Origin: an uncultured Pseudomonadota bacterium
GTDB taxonomy: Bacteria; Pseudomonadota; Gammaproteobacteria; Steroidobacterales; Steroidobacteraceae
NCBI GenBank assembly: GCA_903838705.1
Contig: CAILZL010000004.1
Span: 62,001-126,000, forward strand
Direction: 5' to 3'
DNA length: 64,000 bases
Numbering within the stretch: the stretch's first letter is position 1; each line of letters begins with the position of its first letter. The position numbers and the translations under genes are program-made. This document shows, piece after piece, positions 59,170 through 62,948 of the stretch. The notes beneath the pieces are model-generated. The model saw only the letters and a program-made list of their open reading frames with translations, was not told the origin of the DNA and ran no database searches.

Positions 59170-59808
59170 ATGAATTCACCCACTTCCAGCCCACGTCGCG
59201 CTTACTGGCTCAAAACTCTGCACGAGTGGCACTGGATCACCTCCGCGATTGCCCTGATTGGAATGTTGTTCTTCAGCATTACCGGCATCACGCTCAACAA
59301 TGTGGCGGTACTGGAGTCAGCGCCGGTCATCACCAACAAACAGGCGCAACTGCCAGCCGCGCTGAACACTCAACTCGCCTCCATGGCAGGGGAAATGGCA
59401 GATGAAGACTCTGCTTCATTACCAACTGCATTCCTTGACTGGACCAGGACTACGCTGAATATCGACACCCGCCTTGCGAAACAGGAATGGTCTGACCGGG
59501 ATCTGAACCTATCTCTGCAACGACCGGGCGGTGACGCCTGGATGAGCATCAACTTCAGTAATGGCGCCGTCAAATTCCAGGATACAGATAACGGCCTGAT
59601 TGCGTACCTGAATGACCTGCATAAAGGCCACTACACCAGCACAGCCTGGGCATGGTTTATCGACGGAATGGGTATCAGTTGCCTGATTTTTGCGCTGACT
59701 GGTTTTTTCATACTGTTCCTGCATGCCAAAAACCGTCCTGCCACTTGGCCGCTGGTCGCCCTCGGAATGCTGATTCCGGTTTTACTCGCCTTGCTTACGC
59801 TTCATTAA
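59170..59808 (+). CDS. PepSY-associated TM protein
   Basis: A 212-aa inner-membrane protein. Start MNSPTSSPRRAYWLKTLHEW; the earlier in-frame start at 59053 adds a non-membrane leader and is unlikely. TM1 is near 20-42 (ITSAIALIGMLFFSITGI), followed by a periplasmic PepSY-like domain (WMSINFSNGAVKFQDTDNGL), a DLHKGH motif and two C-terminal TMs (GMGISCLIFALTGFFILFLH; WPLVALGMLIPVLLALL). His residues at LHEWHW and LHKGH could bind heme. Such proteins sit in ferric-siderophore reductase or flavin-linked modules. Confidence 0.88.
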   Translation: MNSPTSSPRRAYWLKTLHEWHWITSAIALIGMLFFSITGITLNNVAVLESAPVITNKQAQLPAALNTQLASMAGEMADEDSASLPTAFLDWTRTTLNIDTRLAKQEWSDRDLNLSLQRPGGDAWMSINFSNGAVKFQDTDNGLIAYLNDLHKGHYTSTAWAWFIDGMGISCLIFALTGFFILFLHAKNRPATWPLVALGMLIPVLLALLTLH

Positions 59809-59829
59809 ACATCCAACAGGAAAGTACCC

Positions 59830-60441
59830 ATGCAAAAGCGCTATTCGATCCCGCTCGGTGTCACGCTGGGTGCCGCTGCAACACTGCCAGCCAACGCTAG
59901 CGAACTGACCGTGAAGGTACAACTGCCGGAATTCACCACCGGACAATATGTAAGACCCTATCTGGCCGTCTGGCTTGAAAAGGCGGATGGCACATTTGTT
60001 CAGACACTGGCCCTGTGGCATGAAATCAAGGACAAGCGAGGCAATCCGCTGACCAATGGCGACAAATATCTGAAGATCATGCGCAACTGGTGGAGCAAAA
60101 GCGGTGCCACCCCTGACATGAAATTTGATGGCATCAGCAGCGCCACCCGCCCTTCTGGTGAATATGAACTGGTTTTCACCGAAGGCAAAGCACCACTGAA
60201 TGCCCTGCCCCCCGGCAAGTATCAACTGATGCTGGAGGTGGCGCGCGAGGTCAAAGCCGGACGGACAGCCGCTCCCAATGCCAAACCGGAAGATCTCGAT
60301 CAAAATGGTCGCCCGAAGAAAGTGGATGTCGATGAACCACAAGCGCCTATCAGCTTCGAGTGGCCGGCCAAGCAGGTCACAACCATCGAATCGCATGGCA
60401 AAGTCGAGATGGGCAAGTATTCACTGGTTGTTAAACCCTGA
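59830..60441 (+). CDS. DUF2271 exported protein, possible flavinylated carrier
   Basis: A 203-aa protein. Signal peptide LGVTLGAAATLPANA, then a DUF2271 domain starting ELTVKVQLPEFTTGQYVRPY with YLAVWLEKADGTFVQTLALW. Residues 100-106 read DGISSAT, close to the Dxx(S/T)GA(T/S) motif that ApbE modifies with FMN. The apbE gene is next. I infer that this is the electron-carrying subunit of the module, but the G to S change in the motif weakens the prediction. It starts 21 bases after the PepSY gene. Confidence 0.88.
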   Translation: MQKRYSIPLGVTLGAAATLPANASELTVKVQLPEFTTGQYVRPYLAVWLEKADGTFVQTLALWHEIKDKRGNPLTNGDKYLKIMRNWWSKSGATPDMKFDGISSATRPSGEYELVFTEGKAPLNALPPGKYQLMLEVAREVKAGRTAAPNAKPEDLDQNGRPKKVDVDEPQAPISFEWPAKQVTTIESHGKVEMGKYSLVVKP

Positions 60442-60484
60442 ACACTTCCACTCAATCAAGCTCATGGGTACCGCATTGATCATC

Positions 60485-60509
60485 CCGGCGCTGTTAATTA
60501 CAGCGCCGG
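60485..60509. terminator. Strong hairpin upstream of apbE
   Basis: Ten-base perfect arms CCGGCGCTGT (60485-60494) and ACAGCGCCGG (60500-60509) with loop TAATT. No U-run follows, so it may attenuate rather than terminate; apbE begins 30 bases downstream. Confidence 0.45.
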
Positions 60510-60538
60510 CTCCAATCCTGAGTTATTAATTCTTCATC

Positions 60539-61558
60539 ATGCGGCGCGTGCTGGTTCCTCACCTTGTCTCAGGGCAGGCACCCGCTGTGGATCACTCCAT
60601 CCACCAGCTACACGGCCAGACCATGGGCACCAGCTGGTCAGTCAGCCTGGTCGCCGCACCAGCGCGCTCTCTCGAATCCATCAAGACTGGCATCCAGCGC
60701 CAACTGGATACGGTGGTTGCACAGATGAGCACATGGGAGAACGATTCCAACCTGAGTCGTTACAATCAGGCTGCGGCTAATACCTGGCATACACTGCCTG
60801 ACGAGTTTTTCTACGTATTACGATATGCGCTGGAAGTCGCACAGGAAAGCGAAGGAGCGTATGACCCGACCAGCGGGCCATTGGTCAATGCCTGGGGCTT
60901 CGGCCCTGCAGCCAGACTAACGCAGCGACCTGAACAAGCCATCCTGAATGCAGCCCGCGCGCGCGTCGGCTGGCAGAGAGTTACAATAGATGCGAATCAC
61001 AAGCGTGCCCTGCAGCCGGGTGGTATCTACCTTGATCTGTCAGCCATCGCCAAAGGCTTTGCTGTTGATCAGGTGGCGCGTTATCTGTCTCAACAGGGTA
61101 TTGCCAGCTATCTGGTTGAAGTGGGCGGCGAACTTTGCGGCACCGGCATCAAGCCCGATGCACTGCCATGGTGGGTAGTACTCGAACAGCCACTTCCACT
61201 GCAAACACAGGCAACAAGTTTGACCGAAACTGTCATCGCCCTGCATGGACTGGCAGTCGCCACATCCGGTGACTACCGGCGTTATTTCACGGTCAATAAT
61301 GTTGCTGGACCAACTCAATACAGCCATACCATTGATCCACGCAGTGGCGAGCCCATACAACATGGTCTGGCCTCCGTCACAGTAATTCACCGTGACTGTA
61401 TTACCGCAGATGCGGTTTCTACCGCCCTGAACGTACTTGGCGCTGACAAAGGCATGGCCTTCGCAACCGCACGCTCCATTCCTGCCCTGTTCATCACGCG
61501 CACGCCATCCGGCTTTGTGGAACAGATGACACCTGAATTTTCAGCACTGATGCAATGA
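60539..61558 (+). CDS. apbE: FAD:protein FMN transferase ApbE
   Basis: A 339-aa transferase that attaches FMN to Thr or Ser of extracytoplasmic proteins. Signatures GQTMGTSWSV, FDPTSGPLVNAWGFGP-type text (here YDPTSGPLVNAWGFG), LDLSAIAKGFAVDQVARYL, YLVEVGGELCGTG and HTIDPRSGEPIQHGLASVTV are all present. The N terminus (MRRVLVPHLVSGQAPAV) lacks a clear signal or lipobox, which is odd for this periplasmic enzyme. An in-frame hydrophobic peptide precedes it, ending in TAA. Confidence 0.95.
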   Translation: MRRVLVPHLVSGQAPAVDHSIHQLHGQTMGTSWSVSLVAAPARSLESIKTGIQRQLDTVVAQMSTWENDSNLSRYNQAAANTWHTLPDEFFYVLRYALEVAQESEGAYDPTSGPLVNAWGFGPAARLTQRPEQAILNAARARVGWQRVTIDANHKRALQPGGIYLDLSAIAKGFAVDQVARYLSQQGIASYLVEVGGELCGTGIKPDALPWWVVLEQPLPLQTQATSLTETVIALHGLAVATSGDYRRYFTVNNVAGPTQYSHTIDPRSGEPIQHGLASVTVIHRDCITADAVSTALNVLGADKGMAFATARSIPALFITRTPSGFVEQMTPEFSALMQ

Positions 61559-61571
61559 TCCGGTAACCGCC

Positions 61572-62948
61572 ATGAATTTTGACAACATTAATAATCGATA
61601 CCTGGCTGCCGCCTTCTGCATTGTTCTGTACCTGATGCTGTGTGGCTGGGTAGTCTGGCGCGAATGGAAAAAACGCCGGCTTGCAGCAAAGGCCGCCGCC
61701 GCGCTGACTCCTGCGATGGCCGGCACCAGCAGCTGGCTGGTGGCCTATGCCAGTCAGACCGGCAATGCCGAGCAACTGGCCTGGCAGACTGCACGTACAT
61801 TGCACACAGCAGGTATTCCGGCGCGTATCAGCCCCCTGTCACAACTGAATGCGGACGATCTGCAGCAATGTGAACGCGCCCTGTTTATTACCAGCACCTA
61901 TGGCGAAGGGGACCCTCCGGATAACGCAACCCTGTTCGCCCGCAAAGTCATGAGCACCTCGCTCAACCTGAGCCAACTGCACTATGGCGTGCTGGCGCTG
62001 GGTGACCGCGAGTACAGAAACTTCTGCGGATTTGGCCGCAATCTGGATGCATGGCTGCAAGCACAGGGCGGGCAAAGTCTGTTTCCGCGCATCGATGTCA
62101 GTAACAGCGATGCGGCTGCACTGGAACAATGGCGCCATCAATTAAGCCATGTTGCCGGCACCGATGATCTGCCTGACTGGCAGGCGCCTGCGTATGAACA
62201 CTGGCGATTAGCAGCACGTCAGCATCTGAATCCCGGTAGCGCCGGAAACCCAGTGTTCCATATTGAACTTGAACCACAGCCAGGAAAGCCATTACCTGCA
62301 TGGCAAGCGGGTGATCTGGTGCAGATTCTGGCTCCCGCTGATCGTGAGCGACCACGCGAATATTCGATTGCCTCAATTCCAGGCGACGGTCGCATCCATC
62401 TGCTGGTGCGACAGGAACGTCATGAAGATGGCACCTTGGGCGTCGCATCCGGCTGGTTGAGCGCACAAGCAGAACTGAATGCGCAGATAGAATTGAGAAT
62501 ACATCCGCATCAGAACTTCCGACTCGAAGGCAATGCCGGCCGCCCATTGATACTGATTGGTAACGGCACCGGGCTGGCGGGTCTGCGCGCCCACCTGAAA
62601 GCCCGCATCGAACAGCAAGTCAGCCGTAACTGGCTTATTTTCGGCGAGCGCAATGCCGCGCACGATGCCTATTATCAGGATGAACTTGCAGCATGGCAGG
62701 CGCAGGGGATGTTGCGTGTGGATCGGGTCTTTTCACGCGATCAGCCAGAACGTCGCTATGTACAGGATCAACTGCGCGATGCAGCGAATACCGTACTCGA
62801 ATGGATCAACAACGACGCAGCAATTTATGTCTGCGGCAGTCTTGAGGGGATGGCCAGCAGCGTGGAAGCTACCCTTGTTGATATTATCGGCACTGAAGGC
62901 GTTGAGCGCCTGATCGAAGCCGGACGCTATCGCAGAGATGTGTATTAG
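61572..62948 (+). CDS. Membrane-anchored flavodoxin-NADPH oxidoreductase (CysJ-like)
   Basis: A 458-aa flavoprotein. One N-terminal TM ([20 protein letters not shown]), a flavodoxin domain with the FMN loop [14 protein letters not shown] and [16 protein letters not shown], then an FNR-like part with [17 protein letters not shown] (FAD) and [17 protein letters not shown] (NADPH). Related to sulfite reductase flavoprotein/P450 reductases. It probably takes electrons from cytosolic NADPH into the PepSY/DUF2271 chain. Starts 13 bases after apbE. Confidence 0.93.

Follow-up and report, generated by a model that had tools for sequence, protein, structure and literature searches.

The stretch analyzed here, called the window, comprises 64,000 nucleotides of contig CAILZL010000004.1 (GenBank assembly GCA_903838705.1) from an uncultured bacterium of the Steroidobacteraceae. 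At 59170–62948 on the forward strand it encodes a four-gene module consisting of a PepSY_TM_like_2 membrane protein, a DUF2271 protein, an ApbE flavin transferase, and a membrane-anchored reductase, for which open reading frames and coordinates agree (Table 1). An earlier note on this DNA had described such a module beside a TonB-ExbB-ExbD-ExbD group, and the open reading frame coordinates and Pfam matches bear this out. The observation is real, and the module as such is of a kind that has already been described and published, which the earlier note did not notice. The genes within the module operon are separated by gaps of 21, 97, and 13 bp, and the TonB group runs divergently from the PepSY gene, 466 bp away. 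In a second genome of the same genus (locus L002), the whole arrangement is kept, the TonB group included.

Table 1. Positions of the module, its candidate flavinylation site, and the divergent TonB group in the window
Feature	Position	Strand	Description
PepSY_TM_like_2 membrane protein	59170..59808	+	212 amino acids; PF16357, E 6.6e-68; three transmembrane-like stretches
DUF2271 protein	59830..60441	+	203 amino acids; PF10029, E 2.9e-34; weak Sec-like N-terminal signal, beta-rich domain
Candidate flavin mononucleotide (FMN) acceptor site DGISSAT	60127..60147	+	DUF2271 residues 100–106, putative acceptor Thr106
In-frame stop codon of the ApbE frame	60527..60529	+	12 bases ahead of the ApbE ATG
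ApbE flavin transferase	60539..61558	+	339 amino acids; PF02424, E 5.8e-85; without signal peptide
Flavodoxin + FNR-type reductase, membrane-anchored, CysJ/P450-reductase-like	61572..62948	+	458 amino acids; PF00258 and PF00175
Divergent tonB/pepSY intergenic region	58704..59169		466 bp
TonB	58008..58703	-	PF03544 (TonB_C)
ExbB	57239..57931	-	PF01618 (MotA_ExbB)
ExbD (first)	56765..57202	-	PF02472
ExbD (second)	56279..56695	-	PF02472
TPR protein, last gene of the TonB group	54784..56226	-	Pfam TPR match

The DUF2271 protein reads DGISSAT where the earlier note had placed it. Both the Asp at position −6 and the acceptor Thr/Ser of the ApbE substrate motif are present, as D100 and T106, and in an alignment of 17 DUF2271 sequences these two residues are invariant, whereas the pair of positions separating the Ser/Thr from the acceptor varies. 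This invariance argues that the motif is more than a chance occurrence and supports the proposal in that note of a candidate flavinylation site. When the nine module and TonB proteins were scanned with the pattern D..[ST].[AP][ST], the only matches were in DUF2271 and in the PepSY protein (DSASLPT, residue 80). The published usual core is [S/T]GA[S/T], however, and the window site is SSAT, which raises the alternative that this DUF2271 is not flavinylated at all; indeed, changing the conserved Gly of the G-A consensus to Ala cut flavinylation to ∼50% in one target (PMC12052999). We consider this very improbable given the invariance of D100 and T106 and the substitutions seen elsewhere. Among 96 PepSY-linked sites, G is present in 58 and A in 68, and Ser occupies the G position in 21. 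An RnfG-like FMN_bind protein of the same genome (L024, C3:10176-13445) has a TSAT site, so that a second ApbE-type target in this organism also has Ser where Gly is usual.

The earlier note read the module as a complete electron path. The transmembrane flavoreductase this calls for is present, but the note did not register that a signal is missing from the ApbE and present on the substrate beside it. The window ApbE begins MRRVLVPH (MRRVLVPHLVSG), and no signal peptide or lipobox is found in it by a home-made rule based on the start codon, a basic residue, and a ten-residue core; none of the start codons in frame yields a signal peptide, and there is no scorable core. A hydrophobic stretch at 60464–60526 lies in the same frame, but an upstream start making use of it was rejected on account of the stop codon that intervenes (Table 1). 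The equivalent stretch in L002 contains several stops, and in-frame stops occur just ahead of ApbE in the window, L002, and L104. The relatives L002, L104, and L095 start alike and are also without a signal. The protein aligns to solved ApbEs, and its structure model has a predicted local distance difference test score (pLDDT) of 89.1, with residues 2–5 modeled as a strand and a pLDDT of 67 over the first ten residues. An RVLIP-like start recurs in 23 of 49 ApbEs (counting only the last 45 residues ahead of the domain), followed in many relatives by polar or charged residues. With an ApbE that lacks a signal, modification of DUF2271 by this enzyme in the periplasm does not simply follow.

The absence of a signal is not peculiar to the window. 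Of 31 DUF2271-linked ApbEs, one of them a fusion (L105), 28 have no signal and three, all from one genus, are lipoproteins, whereas 38 of 49 unlinked ApbEs from 35 DUF2271-bearing genomes carry a signal or lipobox and 11 do not (signal absence 28/31 vs 11/49, Fisher p 1.7e-9, with relatedness ignored). Eight linked ApbEs (L003–L008, L010, L011) come from named genomes outside these 35, and fragments from G151 (C386, C188, two of C470), G029:C231, and G068:C1 were left out. A DUF2271 match above the family cut-off is present in 25 of the 200 family genomes surveyed, in 13 of the 369 from the class, and in 65 of the 398 from the phylum; the class survey leaves out the fragment G259:C50, the phylum survey leaves out G696:C4, both leave out matches below the cut-off, and the plasmid matches H2, H4, H7, and H15 are not in the set.

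A wider set of 123 loci, which adds plasmids and further families of the phylum, gives a similar picture. Its 78 nonfused ApbEs divide into 67 with no signal, seven with a weak one, and four lipoproteins; for the 60 loci that combine PepSY, DUF2271, and ApbE, which represent 33 genus or family groups assigned by hand from search tables, the corresponding numbers are 49, 7, and 4. The first run on this set used unequal core cut-offs (1.2 for DUF2271 and 1.7 for ApbE) and was repeated at equal ones. At a common cut-off of 1.7, 57 DUF2271s and 9 ApbEs of the 60 loci pass; the counts are 60 and 14 at 1.2, 60 and 12 at 1.5, and 37 and 7 at 2.0, and the DUF2271 core score exceeds that of ApbE in 54 of 60 loci. 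The seven ApbEs called as having a signal peptide (L009, L111, L183, L190, L217, L218, L250) were graded weak by eye; at a comparable setting four of them keep a score of at least 1.77, and L190 stands at 2.12, so that these are not clean negatives. L009 was called "none" by a first script and "SP" by a second that allowed His in the core, and L009 and L111, which share N-terminus and site, are apparently the same locus and are both counted in the wider-set figures and in those for the target sites below. A signal-less ApbE is nevertheless a property of most sampled modules of the PepSY-DUF2271 type.

In a tree of 80 ApbEs, built from the set without the Deinococcus, other plasmid, and phylum-set sequences, 27 of the 28 linked signal-less rows group together with one of the 11 unlinked signal-less sequences (L160). 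This group consists of two well-supported sub-branches (98/88 and 100/100), and their union is weak (80/48); the 28th row, the fusion L105, lies outside on a very long branch. Seven of the 11 unlinked signal-less ApbEs form, with L169, a separate short signal-less branch. For the tree, L169 was manually reassigned from "SP" to "no signal," which changes the unlinked counts from 38/11 to 37/12. Genus g4 (L079, L081–L089, L097) has PepSY, DUF2271, and reductase with no ApbE match within the stretch examined; among the other ApbEs of this genus, the majority bear export signals and some fall in the short signal-less branch.

We propose that the module encodes a PepSY-type flavin relay for periplasmic ferric reduction in which DUF2271 is flavinylated in the cytoplasm ahead of export, a reading to which we give about even chances. 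Reduced nicotinamide adenine dinucleotide phosphate (NADPH) would reduce the membrane-anchored diflavin reductase on the cytoplasmic side, and electrons would traverse the membrane via the PepSY protein, which probably bears heme. They would arrive at the periplasmic DUF2271 protein, at an FMN joined covalently to its Thr106, and this protein in turn would reduce ferric iron, most likely from chelates imported through TonB. Because the module ApbE has no export signal, it most likely loads FMN onto the DUF2271 precursor in the cytoplasm, from the cytosolic pool of flavin adenine dinucleotide (FAD), and the flavinylated precursor would then be exported. The genes, the candidate site, the lack of a recognizable ApbE signal, and the predicted transmembrane anchor are established at the level of sequence.

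The route of export appears to differ between lineages. On three Deinococcus plasmids, the DUF2271 proteins carry the consensus of the twin-arginine translocation (Tat) pathway (TRRGFL, TRRTFL, and TRRTFL), and the ApbEs beside them lack a signal from the annotated start, with L190 giving a match to the rule at an upstream start. Gene order at these loci differs from that of the window, and no reductase was found in them. Tat transports folded proteins (PMC13323110), so that loading of the flavin inside the cell would be natural in Deinococcus. In the Pseudomonadota the DUF2271 signals look Sec-type, and a Tat signal was rejected for the window DUF2271, whose N-terminus (MQKRYSIPLG) has no twin arginine. 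ApbE modifies a seven-residue tag (PMC12052999), which suggests that an unfolded precursor would be a feasible substrate ahead of Sec export. That a dedicated cytoplasmic ApbE flavinylates the exported carrier before export throughout the PepSY-DUF2271 modules of Pseudomonadota and Deinococcota, by Tat in Deinococcus and apparently by Sec in the window, is a broader claim that we put slightly below even chances.

The sites themselves suggest a tie between module ApbE and DUF2271. Site endings of the form x-P-T are present in 25 of the 74 modules with an ApbE devoid of a convincing signal, in none of 42 modules with a lipoprotein ApbE or no ApbE within the stretch examined, and in three of five readable fusions; when PepSY is required, the counts are 25/56 vs 0/37. 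The 25 modules span several families (Comamonadaceae, f28, Azospirillaceae, f225, f226, and one Deinococcus), and the site could not be parsed in L112 and L259, though L112 reads DATSSAT in another listing. Since x-P-T is confined to modules whose ApbE has no convincing signal and to fusions, module ApbE would be tied to DUF2271. The window SSAT is not of this type, and SSAT-type sites are also found without a module ApbE.

Several observations weigh against cytoplasmic loading and the relay built on it. The signals were judged by the home-made rule and not by SignalP, and by that rule the Sec-like signal of the window DUF2271 is itself weak (core score 1.68, just below the 1.7 used for ApbE). 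We know of no precedent for Sec export of a flavinylated chain. A clear Tat consensus is limited to the three Deinococcus DUF2271s; an RR pair can be seen in 18 of the 117 N-terminal stretches of DUF2271s, these three included, and several proteobacterial proteins start MRR with the consensus otherwise missing, so that RR elsewhere does not decide the route. To these are added the departure of SSAT from the usual core and the lack of a Fur-like box in the window (below). Furthermore, 39 of the 123 DUF2271 loci have no ApbE within the stretch examined and five of six ApbE-DUF2271 fusions carry a signal, which makes it very probable that DUF2271 is also flavinylated in the periplasm. Finally, the genome that holds the window encodes two exported ApbEs, one with a signal peptide (L012) and one lipoprotein (L014), and the related transferases NosX and NirX have been described as Tat-exported (PMC7660919).

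These points feed two alternatives. The exported ApbEs of the genome may flavinylate DUF2271 in the periplasm, leaving the module ApbE to act on a cytoplasmic protein as in Klebsiella pneumoniae, where a cytoplasmic ApbE has a cytoplasmic fumarate reductase as its target (PMC12052999); the ApbE-less loci fit such an arrangement. Against it, the cytoplasmic module proteins contain no further site-like motif, the PepSY DSASLPT lying between the first and second transmembrane stretches, and the occurrence of x-P-T only with module ApbEs or fusions points to the module ApbE as the probable partner of DUF2271. We regard this alternative as somewhat unlikely. It is decidedly improbable that the module ApbE reaches the periplasm without a recognizable signal, for example by piggy-back, and works there as usual: NosX/NirX, the signal-bearing fusions, and the hydrophobic ApbE N-termini of L183, L217, L218, and L250, which pass the rule weakly, speak for this, but the in-frame stops just ahead of ApbE in three loci speak against it, as does the RRVLIP-like start, whose next residues are polar or charged in many of the relatives and which is modeled, with low confidence there, as a strand of the fold.

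Turning to the electron path, the reductase has one N-terminal transmembrane-like stretch, which with its flavodoxin/NAD-binding domains and a CysJ-like motif supports the transmembrane flavoreductase of the earlier note. It aligns best to sulfite reductase flavoprotein and then to P450 reductases, including a motif aligned against SRDQKEKVYVQDKL; this CysJ-like motif presumably binds the 2'-phosphate of NADPH. Against the NCBIfam cysJ model, the protein scores 259.9 bits, far under the cut-off of 668.15, which makes it CysJ-like and not CysJ; from its sequence it is a relative of CysJ and cytochrome P450 reductase with a predicted transmembrane anchor of its own. In the PepSY protein, the candidate heme-ligand His residues 18, 21, 151, 185, and 212 are kept in 88–100% of 40 rows, a pattern that appears to fit the two-heme site of FoxB (PMC11334425). 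A sequence search of the PDB with the PepSY protein gave no matches at E 1.

The proposal that the module could serve ferric chelates is supported by published relatives, by siderophore receptors beside two relatives, and by Fur-like boxes in relatives. The Caulobacter crescentus operon CC_3059-3063, which encodes a transporter, DUF2271, DUF4198, ApbE, and an NADPH sulfite reductase flavoprotein, is up 12- to 51-fold in iron limitation and in a fur mutant (PMC3751524); its first gene has been called PepSY-family, and insertions lower fitness in ethylenediaminetetraacetic acid (PMC11870441). On plasmids of Methylobacterium currus and Sphingomonas parapaucimobilis, the order PepSY-DUF2271-DUF4198-ApbE comes directly after genes for a TonB-dependent siderophore receptor and for an Fe2+-dependent dioxygenase, and a TonB-like gene is present in 13 of the 123 surveyed loci. 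Fur boxes were scored out of 19 against a Fur consensus. In the regions ahead of PepSY, 33 of 94 reach at least 13/19 vs 3 of 94 shuffled (one mononucleotide shuffle each). The window region 58704–59169 yields no Fur-like box that exceeds chance, its best score being 11/19 and the mean best of 500 shuffles 11.3. The genome has FeoB and eight TonB-dependent receptor plugs. Its sole DUF4198 lies outside the window operon, on C36 (L176, C36:11000-24000), with two ZnuA-type proteins, an ABC-3 permease, an ABC ATPase, and DUF6162.

Given the Fur-like boxes, the relatives at iron loci, and the Caulobacter data, iron is likely the business of the PepSY-DUF2271 group, and we infer an iron role for the window copy. 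An acceptor other than ferric iron (copper, heme or oxidase maturation, or general repair) is unlikely in light of this evidence and of the adjoining TonB group, although the Bordetella PepSY_TM protein CrpH supports heme-copper oxidoreductase function (PMC13038864), the DUF4198 of this genome sits in a ZnuA/ABC-3 metal locus and not in the module, and the tonB/pepSY gap lacks a Fur-like box.

Outside the coding regions, the DUF2271–ApbE gap contains a perfect 10-bp inverted repeat at 60485–60509, CCGGCGCTGT-TAATT-ACAGCGCCGG, which is the only match in the window when three mismatches are allowed and has no T run downstream. An Rfam scan of 54000–64000 gave no matches at the gathering score; two promoter-like sites (shuffle mean 3.3) and six terminator-like sites (shuffle mean 4.7) were counted. 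The DUF2271 structure model has a pLDDT of 77.7, a PDB sequence search gave one unconvincing match (E 0.0076), and Foldseek returned none at E ≤0.001 with the model. In the ApbE-DUF2271 fusion L105 (6445-7902, reverse strand), which has no signal by the rule, a match to FlgD_ig overlaps the DUF2271 portion, a hint that DUF2271 may adopt an Ig-like fold. A loop insertion at 60253–60345 (residues ∼142–172) is common to the window, L002, and L104 and is absent in the other 14 aligned sequences; in the window it contains DLDQNGRPKKVD, which we take to resemble a calcium-binding loop and which is not kept in L002.

Among known systems, the closest are the PepSY-like flavinylation systems named by Meheust et al. 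in 2021 (PMC8238504), who list 3220 PepSY clusters, 231 of them with PF03544, a family given there as TonB receptor and in Pfam as the TonB C-terminal domain, the latter being present in the window. The window likewise unites PepSY (PF16357), DUF2271 (PF10029), and ApbE, and its genes are adjacent, where Meheust et al. ask for PF03929 or PF16357 within five genes of ApbE/DUF2271; the signal peptide or lipid site that they expect in at least one of ApbE, FMN-bind, DUF3570, and DUF2271 is supplied, by our rule, by the weak DUF2271 signal. In that work the A. ursilacus ApbE flavinylated the DUF2271 of that organism, and the modification was lost when the Thr was replaced by Ala. A signal-truncated A. 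ursilacus ApbE is mentioned there, so at least that ApbE was taken to have a signal. The window differs in its SSAT site, in its signal-less ApbE, a feature that other members may share, and in the absence of DUF4198, which 1500 of their clusters have.

The window order of PepSY-type protein, DUF2271, ApbE, and NADPH flavoprotein reductase matches that of Caulobacter CC_3059-3063 (CCNA_03155-03159), which differs in having DUF4198 between DUF2271 and ApbE and in its Fur/iron regulation. FoxB, FpvG, and FhuB, as well as VciB, are PepSY-related membrane proteins with shown or proposed roles in periplasmic ferric reduction; the first three have four transmembrane stretches and two PepSY domains (PMC10866019), whereas the window PepSY is a three-stretch short form that, in our proposal, works alongside a distinct carrier flavoprotein and a reductase. 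Published cytoplasmic ApbEs act on cytoplasmic or intracellular targets in K. pneumoniae and trypanosomatids, and Pden_3291 is a predicted cytoplasmic ApbE with no stated target. The window ApbE resembles the K. pneumoniae enzyme in lacking a signal peptide; that enzyme's target is a soluble cytoplasmic protein, whereas the linked target here has a signal-like N-terminus. In the portions of the ApbE/PepSY literature consulted, we did not find signal-less ApbEs of PepSY clusters or flavinylation of DUF2271 before export stated.

As a module, the window operon adds one more copy to a periplasmic reductase system already described, and the pre-export flavinylation step would, if shown, be new. 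An extracytosolic ApbE needs FAD to be moved across the membrane, and the literature, in the parts consulted, treats the ApbE of extracytosolic systems as exported. If cytoplasmic loading is true, no FAD export would be needed for DUF2271 modification, and the private enzyme–substrate pair would be free to drift to sites such as TQPT, TGPT, and SSAT. Both the compartment in which the flavin is covalently attached and the mode of carrier export would then have to be seen differently.

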